DNA from: Asanoa ferruginea
GTDB taxonomy: Bacteria; Actinomycetota; Actinomycetes; Mycobacteriales; Micromonosporaceae
Direction: 5' to 3'
DNA length: 64,000 nt
Assembly (NCBI RefSeq): GCF_003387075.1
Contig: NZ_QUMQ01000001.1
Coordinates: forward strand, 4,216,001-4,280,000
In this document: positions 5,757 to 55,744 of the stretch, piece after piece
Position numbering within the stretch: the first letter of the stretch is position 1
Layout: every line of letters starts with the position of its first letter
Notes under the pieces: generated by a model
Seen by the model: only the letters and a program-made list of their open reading frames with translations
Database searches by the model: none
Told to the model about the DNA's origin: nothing
Made by a program: the position numbers and the translations under genes

Positions 5757-6485
5757 GTGACCCTCGTAGCTGTCGCGGTCTGTCCCCATCCGCCCATGAT
5801 CGTCCCTGAGGTGGCCGGCGGCGCCGCCGCGGAGCTCGACGACCTGCGGGCGGCCTGCGCAGACGCGGTGACGATGCTGGGCCGGGCCGGTGCGCGGCAG
5901 ATAGTGGTGTTCGGCGCCGATTCGTCCATGACGTCCTATGACCCGCCGCAGCGCGGCTCGCTCCGGCCGTGGGGCGTCGACCTCGACGTGTCGCTCGGGC
6001 CGCACGACCCGCTGGAGAGTCACCAGATGCCGTTGAGCCTGGTGATCGGCGCGTGGCTGTTGCGGCAACACCCGCCACAGCAGCCCGTGATGGTCAACAT
6101 GCAGGGCATCGCCGGGGACGCGACGCCGGCTCAATGCCGGCATTTCGGCGAATGCTGCGCCCCCGACGGGCCGTGGGCCCTGCTCGTGATGGGTGACGGG
6201 TCCGCGTCTCGGGGGATCAAATCACCGGGGTACGACGATCCGCGCGCCCAGCCGTTTGACGACGCGCTGGCTGCGGCGCTGGGTTCGGTCGACCTTTCCG
6301 TGCTGCACGGCCTTGACCCTGTCGTCTCCTCCGAACTGGGTGTCGCCGGCCGCCCTGCCTTCCAGGCGGCGGCCGGGGCGGTCGCTGCCGCGGGCGGGGC
6401 CTGGTCGGGCGAGCTGTCCTACAACGCGGCGCCGTATGGCGTCGGCTACTTCGTGGCGACCTGGCAGCGCGGGGCGGCCGCATGA
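5757..6485 (+). CDS. Class III extradiol-dioxygenase-like (LigB fold) protein
   Basis: This 242-residue protein begins with the LigB-type motif AVCPHPPMIVPEV, where the histidine is a likely metal ligand. Further conserved segments are VVFGADSS and YGVGYFVATW. It resembles the extradiol ring-cleavage superfamily, but its substrate is unknown and no aromatic-degradation genes are nearby. It sits directly before miaA, and its stop overlaps the miaA start (ATGA), so the two are probably translationally coupled. A homologue occupies the same slot in mycobacteria (Rv2728c as I recall), which suggests a link to tRNA modification or the cell envelope rather than catabolism. The GTG start at 5757 is chosen from family similarity; upstream in-frame starts exist. 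Confidence 0.82.
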   Translation: MTLVAVAVCPHPPMIVPEVAGGAAAELDDLRAACADAVTMLGRAGARQIVVFGADSSMTSYDPPQRGSLRPWGVDLDVSLGPHDPLESHQMPLSLVIGAWLLRQHPPQQPVMVNMQGIAGDATPAQCRHFGECCAPDGPWALLVMGDGSASRGIKSPGYDDPRAQPFDDALAAALGSVDLSVLHGLDPVVSSELGVAGRPAFQAAAGAVAAAGGAWSGELSYNAAPYGVGYFVATWQRGAAA

Positions 6486-7399
6486 CGGTCATCGCTGTGG
6501 TCGGCCCGACCGCCGCCGGCAAGTCCGCGCTGAGCCTGGCGCTCGCCGAGAAGCTCGACGGCGAGGTGGTCAACGCCGACTCGATGCAGCTCTACCGCGG
6601 TCTCGACATCGGCACGGCGAAGCTGTCGGTGGCCGAGCGGCGGGGCATCCCACACCACGTCCTGGACATCTGGCCGGTGACCGAGCCGGCGAGCGTGGCG
6701 GAATACCAGCGGCTGGCCCGCGCGGCGATCGACGACATCCTGGCCCGAGGCAAGGTGCCGCTGCTGGTCGGCGGCTCGGGCCTTTATGTGCGGGCAGTGC
6801 TGGAAGAATTCGATTTCCCGGGTACGGACGCTGATCTGCGCTTGTCTCTCGAGGCCGAGCTGGCGCTGGTCGGCGCCGTGGCCCTGCACGAGCGGCTGCG
6901 GGCGGCCGACCCGGAGGCGGCGGCGCGGATCCTGCCGACCAACGGTCGCCGGATCGTGCGGGCGCTCGAAGTGATCACGCTCACTGGCCAGCCGTTCAAG
7001 GCGGCGCTGCCGTCTTCGCCCGTGCCGTTTTATCCGTCTGTGCAAATTGGGGTCGATGTTTCCGGCCCCGTGCTGGATTCGCGGGTGGCTGCGCGGGTCG
7101 AATCGATGTGGTCCGCCGGACTGGTCGCGGAGACCTCGTCACTCGTTTCTGTCGGCCTGCGTTCGGGCCGGACCGCTAGCCGGGCCCTGGGCTACCAGCA
7201 GGTCCTGGCGTTCCTCGACGGTGTGTGTTCGGAGGCTCAGGCCGCTGAGGAGACGATCCGGGCAACCCGCCGTTTCGTACGCCGCCAGCGCACCTGGTTC
7301 CGCCGCGACCCCCGGATCACCTGGCTCGACGGAGCCGACCCCGACCTGGCCACGGCGGCGCTGCGGGCGGTCCACGCGGATAGACCAGGTGCGCCATGA
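6482..7399 (+). CDS. miaA: tRNA dimethylallyltransferase MiaA
   Basis: This enzyme transfers dimethylallyl from DMAPP to A37 of tRNAs that read UNN codons, making the substrate of MiaB. It has 305 residues, the usual length. The P-loop GPTAAGKS lies at residues 8-15. NADSMQLYRGLDIGTAK follows, then LLVGGSGLYVRAVL and the NGRRIVRALE motif, and the C-terminal half has the FVRRQRTWFRRD signature. The start overlaps the preceding stop by 4 nt. dapF follows after about 33 bp, so the extradiol-like gene, miaA and dapF probably form one operon. Confidence 0.97.
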   Translation: MTVIAVVGPTAAGKSALSLALAEKLDGEVVNADSMQLYRGLDIGTAKLSVAERRGIPHHVLDIWPVTEPASVAEYQRLARAAIDDILARGKVPLLVGGSGLYVRAVLEEFDFPGTDADLRLSLEAELALVGAVALHERLRAADPEAAARILPTNGRRIVRALEVITLTGQPFKAALPSSPVPFYPSVQIGVDVSGPVLDSRVAARVESMWSAGLVAETSSLVSVGLRSGRTASRALGYQQVLAFLDGVCSEAQAAEETIRATRRFVRRQRTWFRRDPRITWLDGADPDLATAALRAVHADRPGAP

Positions 7400-7432
7400 T
7401 GGTCGGCGTATCTGTTGGGGGGCGGCTTTGAG

Positions 7433-8713
7433 ATGGGGGGCAGTGTGCGTTTCTTCAAGGGCCACGGCACCGGCAACGACTTCGTGATCCTCCCGGACCC
7501 AGACGGGGGCCTGGAGCTGACACCGTCGATGGTGGCGGCGCTCTGCGACCGCGGCCGAGGCATCGGAGCCGACGGCGTCCTGCACGTGGTCCGCTCCGCG
7601 AAACACCCAGAGGCGGCCGGCCTGGCCGGCGAAGCCGAATGGTTCATGGACTACTGGAACTCAGACGGCTCGATCGCCGAGATGTGCGGCAACGGCGTCC
7701 GGGTCTTCGCCCGGTTCCTGGTGGCCGAGGGCTACACCGACTCGGCCAGCTTCCCGATCGCGACCCGCGCGGGGGTGGTCCGGGCGGTCGTCGGCGCGTC
7801 CGAGGTCTCGGTCACACTGGCGGCGCCGCGCGTCGGTGCGGGTTCGACCGCCACGCTCGGCGGGCTGACCTTCACCGGGACGTCGGTCGACGTCGGCAAC
7901 CCGCATCTGGTCTGCTCCGTGCCGTCGGGGATGTCGCTGCGAGACCTCGATCTGACGCATGCACCTGACTACGACGCTGCCGTTTTCCCGACGGGCGTGA
8001 ATGTCGAGTTCATGGTCCGCGGCGGGACCGAGGCGGCTGCCTTCGGGCACATCGCTGTGGATCGGCGGCCTGGGCCGGATCGCGGTCACATCGCCGTCGA
8101 CTCGCCGCCTGCGGATCGGCCGGAGTATGGCCACATCGCTGTGGATTCGCCGCCGGCCGATGGGCGCGAGCGGGGTCACATCGCTGTCGACTCGCCTCCG
8201 CCTTCGCAGCCTGAGCGGGGACATATCGCCGTTGACTCGCCCACGGAAGGTCGCGAACAAGGCCACATTGCTGTGGACTCGCCTCCGCCTTCGCAGCCTG
8301 AGCGTGGTCACATCGCTGTGGACTCGCCTCCGCCCGTGCAGCCCGAGCGTGGTCATATCGCGGTCGATTCGCCGCCGCCTTCGCCGGCGCAGCCTGATCG
8401 CGGACACATCGCCGTTGACCGGCGGGGCGGGGAGTTCGGCCACATCGCTGTCGACAAGCGCCCGGTCCCGGTCGGGGTCGACGCGCATGTCGCGATGCGG
8501 GTCTACGAGCGAGGGTCGGGCGAGACCCTGTCCTGCGGCTCGGGAGCGATCGCGGTCGCGGCGGTGGCCCTGCGCGAGACAGGCAAGGAGACCGGAGTGG
8601 TCGCGGTAGACGTGCTCGGCGGCCGCCTGACGATCACCGTCGACGGCGAGAGCTGCGTGCTGACCGGTCCGGCCGTCCTGGTGGCAACCGGCGAAACCCT
8701 GCACATCGGCTGA
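7433..8713 (+). CDS. dapF: Diaminopimelate epimerase DapF with a 137-residue repeat insertion
   Basis: DapF interconverts LL- and meso-diaminopimelate for lysine and peptidoglycan synthesis. The protein has 426 residues, against roughly 270-290 for ordinary DapF. The N-terminal half is normal (FFKGHGTGNDFVIL; catalytic C85 in EMCGNGVR; NPHLVC; GVNVEF). The C-terminal half is also normal (AMRVYERGSGETLSCGSGAIA with catalytic C368). Between them, residues about 205-341 consist of ten GHIAVD repeats with Pro/Ser/Glu spacers. The frame is kept throughout and both cysteines are intact, so activity may be retained. ATG 7433 is preferred; TTG 7415 and GTG 7445 are alternatives. Confidence 0.95.
   Translation: MGGSVRFFKGHGTGNDFVILPDPDGGLELTPSMVAALCDRGRGIGADGVLHVVRSAKHPEAAGLAGEAEWFMDYWNSDGSIAEMCGNGVRVFARFLVAEGYTDSASFPIATRAGVVRAVVGASEVSVTLAAPRVGAGSTATLGGLTFTGTSVDVGNPHLVCSVPSGMSLRDLDLTHAPDYDAAVFPTGVNVEFMVRGGTEAAAFGHIAVDRRPGPDRGHIAVDSPPADRPEYGHIAVDSPPADGRERGHIAVDSPPPSQPERGHIAVDSPTEGREQGHIAVDSPPPSQPERGHIAVDSPPPVQPERGHIAVDSPPPSPAQPDRGHIAVDRRGGEFGHIAVDKRPVPVGVDAHVAMRVYERGSGETLSCGSGAIAVAAVALRETGKETGVVAVDVLGGRLTITVDGESCVLTGPAVLVATGETLHIG
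8045..8455 (+). repeat. In-gene array of ten GHIAVD-encoding units inside dapF
   Basis: Copies begin at 8045, 8084, 8129, 8174, 8219, 8261, 8306, 8351, 8402 and 8438. Spacings are 39, 45, 45, 45, 42, 45, 45, 51 and 36 nt, all multiples of three. Every copy encodes GHIAVD exactly, although the six codons vary (GGG/GGT/GGC/GGA, CAC/CAT, ATC/ATT, GCT/GCC/GCG, GTG/GTC/GTT, GAT/GAC). Linkers are mostly SPPPSQPER-like. At DNA level several copies contain the short dyad CCACA-TCGC-TGTGG. Confidence 0.95.
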
Positions 8714-8733
8714 TTCCGCCAACTACCGACGAA

Positions 8734-8763
8734 CCGGGACGGGCACCTGAGAGCCCGTCCCGG
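8734..8763 (+). terminator. Terminator after dapF
   Basis: A perfect 11-bp stem (CCGGGACGGGC with GCCCGTCCCGG) and an 8-nt loop lie 20 nt after the dapF stop. It is followed by GCGATAAAG rather than a U-tract. Confidence 0.8.
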
Positions 8764-8872
8764 CGATAAAGATCACCCAAGATCGGCTCGCACCGCACCG
8801 CCTGAGGCGGCCGCCGCTGACCGCAACCAGATGATCAGCTGGCCTTCTCCGAAGCGAGTGGCGGCGTGGTGA

Positions 8873-9060
8873 GCGTGCTCAGGCCGACGATCAACCACAT
8901 CCCGAAGGCGAACGGCGGCCCGTCGTAGGGTCGGCGTGCTCAGGCCGACGATCAACCACATCCCGAAGGCCAACGGCGGCCCGTCGTGGGTCGGCGTGCT
9001 CAGGTCACGATCAGCGATACCCTGAACGCGAACCGCGGCCGCCCACGGGCGGCGCGCCAA
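8873..9060. repeat. About 61-bp direct repeat, roughly 2-3 copies, dapF/malic-enzyme junction
   Basis: A unit starting GCGTGCTCAGGCCGACGATC occurs at 8873 and 8934 nearly unchanged, and decays in a third copy from 8994. It fills most of the 446-bp gap between the convergent dapF and malic-enzyme genes. I see no supported gene in 8764-9090. The minus-strand reading frame across it merely follows the repeat. Confidence 0.8.
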
Positions 9061-9090
9061 AGCGCAACCCGAGACGAACCTGGCTTCCCC

Positions 9091-9127
9091 GGCGGGAGCG
9101 ACGGTCAGTAACCACCGCGAACCCGGG
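9091..9127 (-). terminator. 3-prime hairpin element, copy 2 (downstream of malic enzyme)
   Basis: The same conserved segment as at 4299-4334. On the minus strand GCGGTGGTT pairs with GACCGTCGC around a 3-nt loop (9098-9118), with wobble pairs only. It lies about 33 nt after the malic-enzyme stop and is the probable terminator. Confidence 0.65.
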
Positions 9128-9159
9128 CACGCCTCAAATCAAGATGTCGAAGTGTCGGC

Positions 9160-10587
9160 TCAGGGCGTCGACGTGTCGGCGACCGCGGGCGCCGCGCCGC
9201 TCTGTGCCGCGGCCCGCACCGCCGCCGCGACCGCGACGGCAACCCGCGGGTCGAACACGCTAGGCACGATCACCGTCGGATTGATCTTGTCTTGGCCGAC
9301 CACGTCGGCAATGGCCTGAGCCGCCGCCAGCGCCATCTCCTCGGTGAAGCCCTCCGCGTGCGCGTCGAGCATCCCGCGGAAAACGCCCGGGAACGCGAGC
9401 ACGTTGTTGATCTGGTTGGGCTGGTCAGAGCGCCCGGTCGCCACGACAGCCGCGTGCTTGCGGGCCTCGCGCGGGTCGACCTCCGGGTCCGGGTTGGCCA
9501 GCGCGAAAACGATCGAGTCCGGCGCCATGGTCGCGATGTCGTCGCCGGTCAGCAGGTTGGGGGCGCTGACGCCGATGAACACGTCGGCGCCGCGCAGCGC
9601 ACCCTGAAGATCACCCTGGTAGCCGTCGCGGTTCGTGTGTTCGACCAGCCACTGCCACGGCGCCGGGAGGTCCTTGAGGCCCGCGTGCAAGACGCCCGGC
9701 CGGTCGTAGGCGATGATGTCGCCGACACCCTGGCGCAGCAGCAACTTCATGATCGCGGTGCCCGCCGCGCCGGCGCCGCTGACCACTACCCGCACGTCTT
9801 CGAGGCGCTTGCCCACGACGCGCAGCGCGTTGGTCAGCGCGGCCAGCACGCAGATCGCCGTGCCGTGCTGATCATCATGGAAGACCGGAATGTCCAGCAG
9901 GTCCCGCAGCCGCTCCTCGATCTCGAAGCAGCGCGGCGCCGCGATGTCCTCCAGGTTGATCCCGCCGTAGGCGGGCGCGATCGCCTGCACGATGCGCACG
10001 ATCTCGTCGGTGTCCTGCGTGTCGAGCACGACCGGCCACGCGTCGACGCCGCCGAAACGCTTGAACAGCGCCGCCTTGCCCTCCATCACCGGCAGTGACG
10101 CCGCCGGGCCGAGGTTGCCGAGGCCGAGCACCGCCGAACCGTCGCTCACCACGGCCACGGTGTTGCGCTTGATCGTGAGGCGGCGGGCGTCGGCCGGGTT
10201 CTCCGCGATCGCGAGGCAGACCCGGGCAACACCCGGCGTGTACGCCCTCGACAGCTCATCCCGGTTGCGCAGCGCGACCTTCGGGGTCACTTCGATCTTG
10301 CCGCCGAGGTGGAGCAGGAACGTGCGGTCGCTGACCTTGCGCACGTCAACGCCCTCGAGCGCCTCCAGGGCCTTGACCACCTGGTCGGCGTGGTTGGCGT
10401 CGGCGGTGTCACAGGTGAGGTCCACGACGACCGTCGTGGGGTCCGAGTCGACCACGTCGAGGGCGGTGACGATCGCACCCGCCTCGCCGACGCAGGTGGT
10501 GAGCCGGCCGATCGACGACGCGTCGGCCATCACCCCGATCCGGATCGTGATCGAAAAGCCGGCACTGGGCAGGCGGGTCGTCGCCAC
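9160..10587 (-). CDS. NAD-type malic enzyme with N-terminal ACT-like domain
   Basis: This enzyme oxidatively decarboxylates malate to pyruvate, linking the TCA cycle to gluconeogenic and lipid precursors. It has 475 residues. An ACT-like regulatory domain occupies about 10-85 ([19 protein letters not shown]). The malic N-domain follows ([46 protein letters not shown]), with the metal-site region [12 protein letters not shown]. The NAD-binding domain has [11 protein letters not shown] and later [15 protein letters not shown] 10587 is chosen because GGAGG lies 5 nt upstream. The gene is divergent from hflX and is followed by a 3-prime hairpin element. The ACT domain suggests allosteric control by a small ligand, not identified here. 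Confidence 0.93.
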
Positions 10588-10738: not shown

Positions 10739-12157
10739 TTGCGCACATTCCACGCTGTGGATGATCAAGCTGACATCGACGCCACCATCGGCGAGCTCGA
10801 GCTCGAAGACCGACATGCCCTGCGTCGCGTCGCGGGTCTGTCCACCGAGCTCACCGACATCACCGAGGTCGAATACCGCCAGCTCCGGCTCGAAAGGGTC
10901 GTGTTGGTCGGAGTCTGGACCGAGGGCACTTCCACCGACGCCGACAACTCATTGATAGAGCTGGCCGCACTCGCCGAGACGGCCGGATCCCAGGTGCTCG
11001 AGGGGCTGATCCAGCGCCGCGGCCGACCCGACCCGGCGACCTTCGTCGGGCGCGGCAAGGTCGACGAACTGCTCGCCGTGGTCACCTCGACCGGCGCCGA
11101 CACCGTCATCTGCGACGGCGAGCTTTCTCCTTCGCAACTGCGCAACCTGGAGCAGCGGGTCAAGGTCAAGGTCGTCGACCGCACCGCGCTGATCCTCGAC
11201 ATCTTCGCCCAGCACGCGAAGAGCAAAGAGGGCAAGGCGCAGGTCGAGCTGGCTCAGCTCCAATACCTGCTGCCCCGCCTCCGTGGTTGGGGCGAGACGC
11301 TGTCCCGGCAGTCCGGTGGTTCCGGGCGGGGCGGCGGCGCGGGTGGCGGCGTCGGCTTGCGTGGTCCCGGTGAGACCAAGCTGGAGACCGACCGCCGCCG
11401 GATCAACGTCCGCATTTCCCGCCTGAAGCGGGAGATCAAGGGCCTTCGCGTCGTACGAGCGACAAAGCGCGCCAGGCGCAACCGCAACGGCGTGCCGGCC
11501 GTGGCGATCGCCGGCTACACCAACGCCGGCAAGTCGAGCCTGCTCAACCGGTTGACCGGTGCTGGGGTGCTGGTGGAGGACGCGCTGTTCGCCACCCTCG
11601 ACCCGACCACCCGGCGGGCCCGGGCGGCCGACGGCCGGGTCTACACCCTGTCCGACACGGTCGGTTTCGTCCGCCACCTGCCACACCAGATCGTCGAGGC
11701 GTTCCGCTCGACGCTGGAGGAGGTCGCCGAGGCCGATGTCCTGGTGCACGTCGTCGACGGCGCGCACCCCGACCCCGAGGAGCAGGTCCGCGCGGTCCAC
11801 GAGGTACTGGCCGAGGTCGGCGCCGAGAGCGTGCCGGAGCTGCTCGTCGTCAACAAGATCGACAGCGCCGACGAGGAAACCCTGCTGCGGCTCAAGCGGT
11901 CGTGGCCCGACGCGGTCTTCGTGTCGGCCCGCTCCGGCCGCGGCATCGACGACCTGCGCGCGGCGGTCGAGGCCCACCTGCCCCGGCCCGCTGTCGAGCT
12001 ACGCGTAGTGGTGCCTTACGACCGCGGTGAGCTGGTTGCCCGGTTGCACCGCCGGGCCAAGGTGCTGAGCACCGCCCACATCGCCGAGGGCACCGCGCTG
12101 CACGTCCGAGTCGATCAGGCGCTGGCGGCCGAGTTGGCGCCCTACTTGTCGGCGTAA
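10739..12157 (+). CDS. hflX: Ribosome-associated GTPase HflX
   Basis: HflX is a GTPase that binds the large ribosomal subunit and rescues or splits stalled ribosomes. It has 472 residues: the HflX N-terminal domain (about 20-190), a helical region with GGAGGGVGLRGPGETKLE, and a G domain with P-loop GYTNAGKSS at 259-267, G3 DTVGF and G4 NKID. The start is a TTG at 10739, chosen because GAGGAGG stands 6 nt upstream and similarity begins a few residues later (ATIGELELEDRHALRRVAGL). A much longer in-frame extension is antisense to the malic-enzyme gene and is rejected. The dapF-to-hflX proximity is conserved in actinobacteria. Confidence 0.95.
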   Translation: MRTFHAVDDQADIDATIGELELEDRHALRRVAGLSTELTDITEVEYRQLRLERVVLVGVWTEGTSTDADNSLIELAALAETAGSQVLEGLIQRRGRPDPATFVGRGKVDELLAVVTSTGADTVICDGELSPSQLRNLEQRVKVKVVDRTALILDIFAQHAKSKEGKAQVELAQLQYLLPRLRGWGETLSRQSGGSGRGGGAGGGVGLRGPGETKLETDRRRINVRISRLKREIKGLRVVRATKRARRNRNGVPAVAIAGYTNAGKSSLLNRLTGAGVLVEDALFATLDPTTRRARAADGRVYTLSDTVGFVRHLPHQIVEAFRSTLEEVAEADVLVHVVDGAHPDPEEQVRAVHEVLAEVGAESVPELLVVNKIDSADEETLLRLKRSWPDAVFVSARSGRGIDDLRAAVEAHLPRPAVELRVVVPYDRGELVARLHRRAKVLSTAHIAEGTALHVRVDQALAAELAPYLSA

Positions 12158-12212
12158 GACGGAGATCACGAGGGGGAGGCGCGCACCCAGGGCGACGTGC
12201 GACACTGGCCCG

Positions 12213-13892
12213 ATGCCGCGCGCTTCCTCTTCGATCACGGTCGTCCTGGGCGTGGTCGCAGCGGCGCTCGGTGCCGGATTTGGCACCGCATGGGCCGCTC
12301 CATCCCCCTCTGCCGGCGCCTCCGCCGGTGCTGTGGCGCCCGTGCAGGGCAAAAAGGTCTGCACGATCACCGACGACAAGCTGGTCGAGCTGTCCGGCCT
12401 GGTCGCGACCAAGACAGGCTTCGTTGTCATCAACGACAGCAGCGACGAGTCGAGTCGGGAAAAGGTCTTCTATCTCGACAAGAAGTGCAAGGTCGTCGAC
12501 TCGATCGCCTACAGCGGCGGTGGCCCGCGCGACACCGAAGACCTGGCCCTGTCGCCCGACGGCAAGACGCTGTGGATCGCCGACACAGGCAACAACATCA
12601 CGAGCAGTGAGCAGCGCTCCAGCATCGTGTTGTGGAGCCTCCCGCTCGACCACAGCAAGAAGCCGACGCTGCACCGCTTCGTCTACCCCGACGACAAGCC
12701 CCGCGACGCCGAGGCCCTGGTCCTTTCCGGCACCGGCGCCGGCACCCCAGTGGTGATCACCAAGTCGACCGGCGCAGCCGAGCTCTTCACCCCCGCAGCC
12801 GCGATCAAGACCGACAACGCGACCGGCGTGAAGATGAAGAAGGTCGGCGACCTCACCCTCCCGAAGACCGACACGCCCAACCTCCTGGGCGCACCCGGCC
12901 GGGTCACGGTGACGGGCGCGGCCCGCTCGTTCGACGGCAAGCGGGTGGTCATCCGCACCTACGCCGACGCCTTCGAGTGGGACGTCGCCGACGGCGGCGA
13001 CATCGTGGCAGCGGTCACCGGCGGCACGAAACCGCGGATCACCGGCCTGACCGACCCGTTCGGCGAGGCGATCTCCTACACGACCGACAACAAGCAGTTC
13101 GTCACCGTCTCCGATGGCGGCCAACTCGGCGAAGACGAAGAGATCCAGATCCTGAGCTACCCGCCGGCAGTGGCGGCAGCGCCGACCGAGGGCCCCGCCT
13201 CCGGCACGGCCGCGGGCACCGGCGGCTCGTGGACCAAGAACCTCACCATCGGCGACATCACCACGTTGATCGCCGCGGTCGGCGTGGTCGGCCTGATCCT
13301 GGTCGCCGCCGGCGTCGCCGGCATCATCGTGGCCCGCAAGAAGCGTGCGGCAACCGCGGCGGCAGATCCCGGCACCGGCGGCGTCGCGAAGGTCGGCCGG
13401 CAAGTAGCACCCGAGCAGGCGACCTGGGACCAGGACGCGTCCGGCAACGTCTACGGCGGCGGCCCGGCCCCGACCGGCGGCGGTGTCTATGGTGGAGCGC
13501 CGGCTCCGGCCGGCGGCGGCGTCTACGGCGGCGGAGGCGCGCCTCCCGGCCCGCAGCGTGGCGGCGGTGTCTATGGCGGTGGCGGTGCTCCGGCTCCGGG
13601 TTCTGGTCCTGGTCCTGGTCCTGGTCCGCAGCGTGGTGGCGGTGTCTACGGAGGTGGCGGTGCGCCCGCCCCGCCGCCGCCCGGCTATGGCGATGGCGGC
13701 GGATACGGCCCGCCTCAGCAGGGCGATCCTCGCCAGCGCGGCAATGGCTACGGCCGGCAGCGGAGTGCGCCGGATGACTATGGCTACTCGGGGTCCGGGC
13801 AGACCTATGGTCAGCAGGGGCAGGGCGGCTACCCCAACGACGATGGCCACGGCTACGTCGGCTCGGGTTACCACCCGGACTACCGCGGCTGA
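12213..13892 (+). CDS. Exported beta-propeller-like protein with TM anchor and Gly-Tyr-rich cytoplasmic tail
   Basis: This 559-residue protein of unknown function has a signal peptide at 1-28 (ending GTAWA). An extracellular domain of about 310 residues follows, with propeller-like strings such as TEDLALSPDGKTLWIADTGN and TVSDGGQLGEDEE. A transmembrane helix lies near 349-373 (LIAAVGVVGLILVAAGVAGIIV) and is followed by ARKKR, which puts the C-terminus in the cytoplasm. The last 150 residues are low complexity, with GGGVYGG repeated about five times plus Pro/Gln/Tyr-rich sequence. The tail resembles disordered, condensate-prone tails. It is convergent with lexA. Confidence 0.85.
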   Translation: MPRASSSITVVLGVVAAALGAGFGTAWAAPSPSAGASAGAVAPVQGKKVCTITDDKLVELSGLVATKTGFVVINDSSDESSREKVFYLDKKCKVVDSIAYSGGGPRDTEDLALSPDGKTLWIADTGNNITSSEQRSSIVLWSLPLDHSKKPTLHRFVYPDDKPRDAEALVLSGTGAGTPVVITKSTGAAELFTPAAAIKTDNATGVKMKKVGDLTLPKTDTPNLLGAPGRVTVTGAARSFDGKRVVIRTYADAFEWDVADGGDIVAAVTGGTKPRITGLTDPFGEAISYTTDNKQFVTVSDGGQLGEDEEIQILSYPPAVAAAPTEGPASGTAAGTGGSWTKNLTIGDITTLIAAVGVVGLILVAAGVAGIIVARKKRAATAAADPGTGGVAKVGRQVAPEQATWDQDASGNVYGGGPAPTGGGVYGGAPAPAGGGVYGGGGAPPGPQRGGGVYGGGGAPAPGSGPGPGPGPQRGGGVYGGGGAPAPPPPGYGDGGGYGPPQQGDPRQRGNGYGRQRSAPDDYGYSGSGQTYGQQGQGGYPNDDGHGYVGSGYHPDYRG

Positions 13893-14039: not shown

Positions 14040-14400
14040 ATGCCCAGCCGGGCGGTTTGCGGGCGGCTCTCGTGATGCGGCCGCAGCGCGGTTTGCGGGC
14101 AGGCTCTTGTGATGCCGTGCAGGGCGGCTCGCGCGCGGGCTTTTGACGCGGTCAGGCGGTTTGCGGGCGGGCTCTCGTGATGCGGCGCAGGGCGGTTGGC
14201 GCGGGGGCTTTTTGACGCGGCGCCAGGCGCGCTTCCCGGGCGGGCTCTTGTGATGCGGCGCAGGGCGGTTCGCGCGCAGGCTTTTTGACGCGGCGCCAGG
14301 CGCGCTTCCCGGGCGGGCTCTTGTGATGCGGCGCAGGGCGGTTCGCGCGCAGGCTTTGCGACGCGGCGCCAGGCGCGCTTCCCGGGCCGGGTCTCATGAT
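14040..14400. repeat. 73-bp tandem repeat between the Gly-rich protein gene and lexA
   Basis: The unit starts GCTTCCCGGGCGGGCTCTTG and recurs at 14231, 14304 and 14377, with two or more decayed copies to the left (from about 14040). Each unit alternates GTGATGCGGCGCAGGGCGG and TTTTTGACGCGGCG blocks. The 710-bp gap 13893-14603 between these convergent genes holds this array and no supported gene. A 94-codon minus-strand frame over it is repeat-driven. Confidence 0.85.
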
Positions 14401-23219: not shown

Positions 23220-23780
23220 CGAGGCCGCGACCAGGCCGCCTGAGGAGGGTCCTTGACACTGGGCGGCGGCAAGCGAGCCGCCATAGGGAGGGCCTTGCCG
23301 CTCGAGGGCGGCGATCGGGGCGCCTAGGAAGGGGCCCGCCGCCGCGCGACGGCGATCAAGCCGCGTTGAAGGGCGCCCGCCGCCGGGCGGCGGCGATCAA
23401 GCCGCGTTGGAAGGGGCCCGCCGCCGCGCGACGGCGATGAAGCCGCGTTGGAAGGGGCCCGCCGCCGGGCGGCGGCGATCAAGCCGCGTTGGAAGGGGCC
23501 CGCCGCCGGGCGGCGGCGATGAAGCCGCGTTGGAAGGGGCCCGCCGCCGGGCGGCGGCGATCAAGCCGCGTTGGAAGGGGCCCGCCGCCGGGCGGCGGCG
23601 ATCAAGCCGCGTTGGAAGGGCCCTGCCACCGGGCGGCGGCGATCAAGCCGCGTTGGAAGGGGCCCGCCGCCGGGCGGCGGCGATCAAGCCGCGTTGGAAG
23701 GGCCCTGCCACCGGGCGGCGGCGATCAAGCCGCGTTGAAGGGGCCTGCCGCTGGCTGGCGGCGGTCAAGCCGCCTAACGA
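23220..23780. repeat. 41-bp tandem repeat array, each unit with a GC hairpin
   Basis: The unit is GGAAGGGGCCCGCCGCCGGG followed by CGGCGGCGATCAAGCCGCGTT. Ten well-kept copies end in AAGCCGCGTT between about 23358 and 23735, with diverged copies at both edges (about 13 in all). CCGCCGCCGGGCGGCGG inside each unit is self-complementary. The array fills the 610-bp gap between the convergent lipoprotein and ideR genes. The plus-strand frame over it is repeat-driven. Confidence 0.92.
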
Positions 23781-29269: not shown

Positions 29270-29385
29270 CGGCGCCCTCGGCCTGCCGGCAACGGTCTGC
29301 CGGTCCGCGGCGCTGCGGTTCATCGGCCCTGAGGCCCGTCAGTCGCTACAAGTCTGAGGCGCGTCGGCGTTCCAGCGGCCCGTCG

Positions 29386-29658
29386 GCCTTGCGGCCCTTC
29401 GGCCTGTCGGCCTTGCGGCCTGTCGGCCTTGCGGCCTGTCGGCCTTGCGGCCTGTCGGCCTTGCGGCCTGTCGGCCTTGCGGCCTGTCGGCCTTGCGGCC
29501 TGTCGGCCTTGCGGCCTGTCGGCCTTGCGGCCTGTCGGCCTTGCGGCCTGTCGGCCTTGCGGCCTGTCGGCCTTGCGGCCTGTCGGCCTTGCGGCCTGTC
29601 GGCCTTGCGGCCTGTCGGCCTTGCGGCCTGTCGGCCTTGCGGCCTGTCGGCCTTGCGG
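29386..29658. repeat. 16-bp tandem repeat, about 17 copies, between pat and a membrane-protein gene
   Basis: The unit CTTGCGGCCTGTCGGC repeats almost without change. Sixteen is not a multiple of three, so all three frames stay open and the apparent proteins (poly RPTGRKADRPQG) are artefacts. It fills most of the 449-bp gap between convergent genes. I see no gene in 29270-29718. Confidence 0.93.
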
Positions 29659-29718
29659 TCCTTCCGTCTTGGGGCCTGGAGCTCGCAGCCTGTTCGCCCC
29701 GCACGCCCTTCGGCTCGG

Positions 29719-54243: not shown

Positions 54244-55744
54244 CCGGCGGCCCCGGAGCGCCCTTCAATTGCGGTCGCGGAGCGCCGCTCGACAAGGGTC
54301 GCGTAGCGCCGCTCGACAAGGGTCGCGTAGCGCTGCTCGACAAGGGTCGCGGAGCGCCGCTCGACGGGGGTCGCGGAGCGCCGCTCGACGAGGGTCGCGG
54401 AGCGCCCTTCAACGGGCGCCGCGGAGCGCCGTTCGACGAGGGTCGCGGAGCGCGGCCGAATACCAGCCACGCGAGGCCGCCGCAGGCGGGCAGCAATAGC
54501 AGCGCCCATCCGGCGCCCGTACCGACCAGCGCGCCCGTCGCGGCCACGCCGAGCGTGGCGCCGACCTGGCGCACGGCGCCCAGCAGCCCACCGGCTGCGC
54601 CGGCCGCGTCCGGTGGTGCGCTGCCGACCACGGCGGTGACCAGCGCCGGCAATACCAGCGAGAGCCCGAACCCGGCGAGCAGCAGGCCGACCGCCAGCCA
54701 CGGGTAGCCGCCGCCGGTGAAGACTGTGCCGGCCAGCAGCGCGCCGCCGGTGGTCAGCAGGGCCAGGCCCGCCAGGATCGGTGGGCGCGGGCCGAAGCGG
54801 GCCACCAGCCGGGCGGTGACCGGCGGGTTGGCCGCGAACGGCACGGTCAGTGGCAGGAATGCCAGGCCGGTCGCCAGCGGGCTCAGGTGGCGATCCTGCT
54901 GGAGCAGCAGCGGCAGCACGAACAACGCGCCGGCCAGGGCGAAGTTTGCCGCCCCGCCGACCAGGAGGCCGGCCCGAACGCCGGCCGAGCCGAGCAGCGC
55001 GCGGTTGAGCACCGGCGCTCCGCTGCGCCGCTCCAGGGTCGTGAAGATCACTAGCGCGGTCGCGAGCGCGGCCGCCGACCATGCCGCGTGCCGCCAGGCG
55101 GGTGCCCCGGCGGCGATGACCGTGTCGGTGAGCAGGGCCAGCACCGCCACCCCGGCCAGTTGGGCCGGCCAGTCGATCCGCCGGTCGCCGCGCGGGCCGC
55201 GCAACGCCGCGCCGCGGACCAGTGCCAGCACGACCAGGCCGATCGGGACGTTGACCAGGAAGACCGACCGCCAGCCGGCGGCGTCGACCAGCGCGCCGCC
55301 GGCGATCGGGCCGGCCGCCACGGCCGCGCCGCTGATCGCGGCCCACGTCGCGACCGCACGGGCCCGCTCGGCGGGCCGCGGGTAGAGCCTTGCGATCAGA
55401 GCCAGCGACGCGGGTACGCACGCCGCGGCCGCGACACCGGCGACCGCCCGCAGGGCCACCAGCGTCGCGAGGTCCGGCGCGCCGGCGCTGAGCAGGGACG
55501 CGAGCGTGAAGCCGGCGATGCCGGCCCGGAACAGCCGGTCGGCGCCGTAGCGGTCAGCGGCGGCGCCCGCCGACAGCAGCAGCGCCGCGAATGCCACCGT
55601 GTAGCCGGTGGTCGCCCATTGCAGCCCGGCGATCGAGGCGCCGAGCGACCTCGCCAGGTCGGGCTCGGCGACCGACAGCACGGTCATGTCCAGCAGCACC
55701 ATGAAATAGCCGAGCGAGATGCCGGCCAGTGGGAGTTTGCGCAC
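54203..55744 (-). CDS. MFS exporter of the DHA2 (EmrB/QacA) type with repeat-derived tail
   Basis: This 513-residue transporter has about 14 helices. The N-terminal part contains ISLGYFMVLLDMTVLSVAEP and LQWATTGYTVAFAAL, and a DHA2-type motif C-like stretch follows (GPIAGGALVDAAGWRSVFLV). The last 75 residues (from about residue 440) are an Arg/Pro/Ser-rich repeat, SSGAPRPL-like, encoded by a 24-bp DNA repeat, and are unlikely to be needed for transport. The start is GTG 55744. It is divergent from a LysR gene, the likely regulator. The substrate is unknown. Confidence 0.88.
   Translation of the reverse strand: MRKLPLAGISLGYFMVLLDMTVLSVAEPDLARSLGASIAGLQWATTGYTVAFAALLLSAGAAADRYGADRLFRAGIAGFTLASLLSAGAPDLATLVALRAVAGVAAAACVPASLALIARLYPRPAERARAVATWAAISGAAVAAGPIAGGALVDAAGWRSVFLVNVPIGLVVLALVRGAALRGPRGDRRIDWPAQLAGVAVLALLTDTVIAAGAPAWRHAAWSAAALATALVIFTTLERRSGAPVLNRALLGSAGVRAGLLVGGAANFALAGALFVLPLLLQQDRHLSPLATGLAFLPLTVPFAANPPVTARLVARFGPRPPILAGLALLTTGGALLAGTVFTGGGYPWLAVGLLLAGFGLSLVLPALVTAVVGSAPPDAAGAAGGLLGAVRQVGATLGVAATGALVGTGAGWALLLLPACGGLAWLVFGRAPRPSSNGAPRRPLKGAPRPSSSGAPRPPSSGAPRPLSSSATRPLSSGATRPLSSGAPRPQLKGAPGPPVRRSPRPPVGGRG
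54262..54450. repeat. 24-bp tandem repeat at the DUF3159/MFS junction
   Basis: The unit GGTCGCGGAGCGCCGCTCGA plus AAG (variants GGG, GAG; CTGCTC) occurs about eight times. Because 24 is a multiple of three, the repeat is read through in the MFS frame as its C-terminal tail. The array begins 18 bp after the DUF3159 stop. Confidence 0.9.

Follow-up and report, generated by a model that had tools for sequence, protein, structure and literature searches.

Diaminopimelate epimerase (DapF) is an essential enzyme of the cell-wall and lysine (DAP) pathway. In Asanoa, a genus of soil bacteria, it raises a question: why does such an enzyme carry many exact copies of one hexapeptide, GHIAVD, in the middle of its chain, and is it the peptide or the underlying DNA that is being kept? 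We addressed this in a 64,000-nucleotide stretch of the Asanoa ferruginea genome (hereinafter designated the window) and in related genomes. The features of the window on which the argument rests are the following.

6482..7399, forward strand: miaA, encoding an IPP transferase (Pfam PF01715), directly upstream of dapF
7433..8710, forward strand: dapF, encoding diaminopimelate epimerase (426 codons, 426 aa), the sole DapF match in the genome
7685..7687, forward strand: codon of catalytic Cys85, 5' of the array
8000..8002, forward strand: codon of Asn190, aligned with Asn194 of C. glutamicum DapF, at the predicted start of the strand preceding the array
8045..8455, forward strand: the array, ten GHIAVD hexapeptides and nine linkers, 137 codons
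8045..8083, forward strand: unit 1, F-GHIAVD-RRPGPD; the first unit reads F-GHIAVD-RRP[G/A]PD in 6/6 Asanoa DapF
8084..8401, forward strand: units 2-8, of the internal type [R/Q/Y]-GHIAVD-SP..., whose number differs among species
8402..8437, forward strand: unit 9, GHIAVD-RRGGEF, found in 5/6 species
8438..8455, forward strand: unit 10, the final copy, with KRP next in 6/6 species
8507..8512, forward strand: codons of Glu359-Arg360, aligned with Glu212-Arg213 of C. glutamicum DapF, at the predicted end of the strand following the array
8534..8536, forward strand: codon of catalytic Cys368, 3' of the array

The product of dapF matches TIGR00652, the NCBIfam DapF family (199 bits; cut-off 114.65), and PF01678 (151.7 bits; cut-off 34.7). 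From the KGHG motif to the stop codon it spans 418 residues, compared with 251–294 in 26 DapF proteins from other genera, giving an excess of ~140 residues and bearing out the original prediction of a 426-codon gene too long by about that number. The two cysteines expected on either side of the insertion are present as Cys85 and Cys368. Both of them, as well as N15, N76, N87, N156, N190, E359 and R360, are invariant in 32/32 DapF sequences of an alignment compiled without family loci L050 and L052. A single DapF locus is found in each of six Asanoa genomes (two DapF matches in an Asanoa genome proved to be pieces of one gene and were counted once), and none of the six holds a Ddh over the family cut-off of 180.6 bits, two of them giving weak matches of 24.5 and 29.9 bits. 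Judged by gene content, DapF is thus probably the only route to meso-DAP in Asanoa.

The GHIAVD copies in the window begin at 8045, 8084, 8129, 8174, 8219, 8261, 8306, 8351, 8402 and 8438, all in frame, with successive starts 13, 15, 15, 15, 14, 15, 15, 17 and 12 codons apart and linkers of 6 to 11 codons. Their ten 18-mers are ten distinct DNA sequences that use four Gly, three Ala and three Val codons, and a degenerate GHIAVD pattern has no match in 100 dinucleotide shuffles of the window, which confirms the claim of ten exact in-frame hexapeptides with varying codons. Because the genome assembly is one 9.07 Mb contig and five other Asanoa assemblies carry the same kind of in-frame array, the evidence is strongly against an assembly error.

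Comparison within the genus reveals the array in DapF of 6/6 Asanoa genomes examined, at variable copy number: ten in the window and in A. hainanensis, twelve in A. iriomotensis, eight in A. ishikariensis and A. siamensis, and six in a further genome (G005). The 54 units of the six species comprise 52 GHIAVD and two GHIAMD in 28 DNA spellings; H, D, G, I and A are invariant in all 54 and V in 52. Relatives that retain the DNA repeat and lose the peptide would speak against selection on the peptide, and the opposite is seen. The first unit (GHIAVD-RRP) and the last (GHIAVD-KRP) are present in all six species, so it is the middle of the array that expands and contracts. The closest pair, A. hainanensis and A. 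ishikariensis, with N-terminal cores 92% identical, nevertheless differ by two units. The dapF gene of G005 (L013) contains a near-identical duplicated two-unit block of 38 residues, which looks recent, and has longer linkers with VTPPPA. Across the six species linkers measure 6–17 codons and units 12–23 codons. The array probably has a single origin, on the Asanoa stem, and grows and shrinks as such units are duplicated and lost.

The linkers are rich in Pro (29%), Arg (18%) and Asp (10%) and contain 1.6% aromatic residues. GHIAVD is followed by SPP in 27 of the 54 units, by APP in six and by TPP in one, and is directly preceded by R or Q in 39, so that the typical motif reads [R/Q/F]-GHIAVD-[S/A/R/K]-[P/R]-P. 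Of the 33 nine-codon linkers, 32 have Pro at position 2 and 32 have it at position 3, implying that the selected unit may exceed the hexapeptide. The invariant His and Asp of every unit (54/54) could be read as a site for metal or phosphate, the whole array acting as a multivalent sink or regulator. We consider this improbable, as G, I and A never vary either and 52/54 units retain V, a constancy that a loose His/Asp site would not need; nor do we know of a metal motif of GHIAVD form.

Is it the peptide, then, that is selected? For pairs of units within one genome, the hexapeptide has a pS of 0.53, a pN of 0.007 and a pN/pS of 0.012 (54 units, six species), compared with a pN/pS of 0.63 for linkers (the nine-codon linkers of 33/54 units, other lengths being dropped) and, between species, 0.32 and 0.29 for the enzyme core upstream and downstream of the array; such pair counts share history and are descriptive. 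Between species, the first unit has pN 0 and pS 0.57, and the last pN 0 and pS 0.26. Parsimony, covering the 33/54 units with nine-codon linkers, is the safer guide. On a tree built from whole 45-nt units, the hexapeptide undergoes 35 changes at third positions and one at positions 1 and 2, against 64 and 41 for the linkers; the counts are 42 and one against 64 and 41 on a linker-only tree, and 18 and one against 83 and 90 on a hexapeptide-only tree. The single coding change is thus common to every tree, the other counts being tree-dependent. A pN/pS of 0.012 set against 0.63 in the linkers and ~0.3 in the core indicates that the peptide, not the DNA, is under selection, in agreement with the original prediction. 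The GHIAVD hexapeptide is under very strong purifying selection, stricter than that on the enzyme itself.

The same numbers bear on the idea that a tandem DNA expansion or palindromic element is neutrally tolerated in a loop and that the peptides are identical through recent duplication. Tandem Repeats Finder does score the array as a 45/90-bp repeat, the number of units varies, the two-unit block in G005 has the look of a recent duplication, and 19/33 units have their closest DNA relative within their own genome. Homogenisation, whether through recent duplication or through gene conversion, would however also wipe out synonymous differences, whereas units of one genome combine a high pS with a pN near zero and the ten hexamers of the window all differ in DNA; it is therefore not the general picture. 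Neutral expansion, to which we give next to no credence, is already contradicted, because it calls for linker-like change at codon positions 1 and 2 of GHIAVD, which is not seen. The proposed palindromic seed, CCACA-TCGC-TGTGG, had to be abandoned as well: its 5-bp stem is intact in only 2/54 units, with four pairs in 19, three in 20 and fewer in 13, and a palindromic DNA element is rejected. The Rickettsia palindromic elements (RPE) are coding elements that place an extra in-frame peptide inside a housekeeping protein, and to this extent Asanoa DapF resembles the proteins that carry them. The present results lend the comparison no support. Asanoa DapF differs in that the array occupies one protein only, is tandem, does not keep a palindrome and conserves peptide rather than DNA.

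Outside Asanoa the array was sought at several scales. A scan of 84,980 species genomes returned 199 stretches that fit the peptide pattern, four of which were confirmed, all from Asanoa (A. hainanensis, A. iriomotensis, A. ishikariensis and A. siamensis). DapF was searched for in 51 genomes of the family; among the 49 from outside Asanoa one gave no match, one a weak N-terminal match only, and 47 were readable. The array is absent from all 47, which represent 41 other genera, the two DapF halves lying at most 66 bases apart and, except in G006, at most 27; GHIAVD is likewise absent from 26/26 translated DapF of other family genera. The family comparison thus upholds a genus-bound array. GHIAVD patterns number at least seven in each of the six Asanoa genomes and 0–4 in the other 294 of 300 family genomes, with one to four per genome in 82 of the 294. 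The exception, G006 (L040), from another genus of the family, has an EGSAGVP-like seven-residue repeat in the same DapF hairpin loop, with 66 nt between the matched halves and ~16 extra residues relative to L027. It is a single genome, and its repeat shares with the Asanoa array the site and in-frame growth; unlike the array, it is short and of unrelated sequence. The loop thus tolerates growth.

A class-wide search of 296 genomes gave DapF matches in 285, including the window's own, and more than one match in 15 others. No DapF split at the array hairpin was found in the nine multi-match genomes and five early-ending single matches that were re-examined, one of the nine (G506) having a masked stretch before its DapF match; in the six remaining multi-match genomes the best DapF match, among the matches listed, is full length. 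Variable DapF insertions, non-repetitive by eye, were seen in one other actinobacterial family (L069, L071, L072, L073 and L076); they occupy different loops, either ahead of the NPHAV segment or past it.

Searching the window's own genome at the protein level with the array block recovered the array and two weak matches (E 0.028 and 3.4). A dispersed repeat family was rejected: the better weak match (L060) covers 41 residues at 39% identity in a 304-aa open frame without GHIAVD. One further GHIAVD pattern in this genome, at 3606954, has flanks unlike the array. As to a mobile origin, no array match was found in phages, nor in plasmids by near-match search, and none of six IMG/VR stretches that fit the array pattern was confirmed. 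Four plasmid records give weak tblastn matches to the array (32–41% identity), taken as compositional on the strength of the one record opened, from Rhizobium, whose match is antisense to an aldo/keto reductase. Sub-threshold Pfam matches at the array region, to Ntox47 (16.3 bits against 25), DUF7597 (12.4 against 27) and CHAP (11 against 26), are taken as chance. The array has no relative among solved structures at E up to 10, window positions 7000-9500 contain no Rfam element, and PubMed Central, which leaves out most subscription papers, listed no paper that points to GHIAVD or to a repeat-bearing DapF insertion.

Where the array sits in the enzyme was examined by alignment and modelling. 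Set beside known DapF (TIGR00652; C. glutamicum 5H2G/5M47; M. tuberculosis 3FVE), the enzyme encoded in the window matches the family model and keeps the fold of two domains, as well as those catalytic and substrate-binding residues that were checked. It differs in having 154 residues with the array (196–349) where C. glutamicum has three (200-202). An AlphaFold2 model from 32 sequences has pLDDT of at least 90 for 243 residues and below 50 at residues 206–340; Asn190 starts a strand at 190–196, Glu359 ends a strand at 351–359, and no strand is predicted within the array. Foldseek with this model returns DapF structures at the top (5h2g, 5h2y and 5m47). The array is accordingly placed by the model at the tip of a beta-hairpin of the C-terminal domain with the DapF fold kept around it, in line with the anticipated surface-loop insertion and intact catalytic fold. 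The anticipated order within the module is not supported: pLDDT is below 50 both at residues 206–340 and throughout the array folded alone (mean 36.9), on a shallow alignment with six array-bearing sequences that limits the test, low pLDDT not being proof of disorder. Folded alone from a single sequence, the array acquires strands of at least three residues on seven of the ten hexapeptides, which hints, and no more than hints, at an extended motif.

In C. glutamicum DapF, Asn194 and Glu212-Arg213 hold the substrate and the dimer is formed mainly by the N-terminal domains, according to the part of the published study drawn on here (PMC5296763). With their counterparts Asn190 at the start of one modelled strand and Glu359 at the end of the other, the array should leave the hairpin at the end distant from the active site. 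Neither the active site nor a dimer interface made by the N-terminal domains should then be obstructed.

We favour, by a modest measure, a disordered arm whose repeated short linear motifs would dock, multivalently, onto a putative partner. A flexible Pro/Arg-rich arm would loop out of the hairpin tip of the C-terminal domain and display 6–12 copies of one short linear motif; each GHIAVD would dock, probably as a short extended strand, on a partner protein; and the many copies would provide avidity or else a scaffold by which the meso-DAP-making enzyme is placed or clustered. Disorder of the arm, docking of GHIAVD and multivalency as the purpose of the copies are what we infer from a short core that is conserved across copies under purifying selection, as in multivalent short-linear-motif arrays. 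Linker length and copy number would vary around a constant core because independent motifs are set between variable spacers, a variation that a folded solenoid would not easily allow. With no Ddh and one DapF locus in each genome, the arm is borne by an enzyme without visible bypass. Within the sensitivity of the scans the array was met in no other protein, whether in the 84,980 species genomes, in IMG/VR or in phages, so there is no outside context that names the partner.

An array under selection could instead serve self-association, metal binding or stability. The main rival to partner docking is self-association, in which HIAV cores pair among themselves or with the DapF strand GVVAVD and turn DapF dimers into polymers or condensates. 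This strand (residues 388–393) is the best core match to GHIAVD in all six proteins (BLOSUM62 score 20; the adjacent strand AHVAMR is weaker, at 14), and the low-confidence single-sequence model with strands on seven of ten motifs would fit such pairing. The GVVAVD score, however, is reached by 59/1000 shuffles of the window core, a rate of 6% that makes the match weak, Pro-rich linkers of 6–17 codons are ill-suited to regular stacking, and the alignment-based model has no strand in the array; we regard self-association as rather unlikely. As the source of GHIAVD the DapF strand is unproven. Another candidate is an open frame that we take to be ribosomal protein S4 (rpsD), which reads HGHIAVDGRKVDRPSY in the other five Asanoa genomes (L086, L089, L090, L091 and L092) and GHVAVD in the window genome (L093). 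The nine S4-like residues after GHIAVD are equalled in their fit to the linker profile by about 1.1% of random 9-mers, a comparison chosen post hoc, and an origin from the S4-like HGHIAVDGRKVDRPSY is possible but unproven. GHIAVD also occurs in another frame of the Asanoa genome G001, presumably a ROK-type kinase.

The neighbors of dapF are ordinary: miaA upstream, and downstream a malic enzyme and then a GTPase, HflX-like by our reading of its Pfam domains. Among nine window open frames compared with Pfam, the cellulase–miaA stretch being excluded, six matched (IPP transferase, malic enzyme, HflX-like GTPase, GH5 cellulase, ribonucleotide reductase and FAD oxidoreductase) and three did not. 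This speaks to the thought that the array is a cryptic multi-core precursor whose repeats are excised as peptides. Precursor peptides with repeated cores are known from yeast alpha-factor and ustiloxin UstA; their layout of identical short cores and variable spacers is that of the array, and R or Q stands before 39/54 units. None of the nine frames outside that stretch, however, matched a peptide-maturation family, and cleavage would split an enzyme without visible bypass, leaving this reading very improbable.

Other repeats occur in the window. A 61-bp tandem repeat of 2.8 copies (8873-9040) lies between dapF and the malic enzyme gene. An open frame without Pfam match at 12069-13889 has GGGVYG four times in 4/4 different DNA spellings and is possibly another selected coding repeat; with this exception, hexapeptides repeated at least four times in other window frames have one to three DNA spellings. 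Tandem arrays are found at 14050-14394 (73 bp), 23307-23773 (41 bp), 29384-29678 (16 bp) and 54273-54453 (24 bp), and hexapeptides repeated in open frames over the last three use between one and three DNA spellings only.

Disordered regions bearing tandem arrays of short linear motifs are familiar from the CsoS2 repeats of carboxysomes and the DPF repeats of Eps15. The Asanoa array has in common with them a short invariant core, variable spacers and changing copy number. It differs in its location, a loop within a soluble biosynthetic enzyme, in its restriction to one genus and in having a reader that is only putative. Repeated short linear motifs are thus already known, and what is new is their place in DapF and their confinement to one genus. 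Repeated motifs in disordered arms are a principal means by which eukaryotes build multivalent assemblies, but to our knowledge there are few bacterial cases. Carrying the docking arm one step further, we tentatively raise the possibility that Asanoa possesses a dedicated GHIAVD reader, through which its sole DapF would work as a multivalent scaffold, drawing in or clustering the meso-DAP and peptidoglycan-precursor machinery, a genus-specific motif code in an essential pathway. The GHIAVD peptide is a ready bait for such a reader, and the copy series of 6, 8, 8, 10, 10 and 12 offers a natural set for learning how valency tunes a bacterial assembly.
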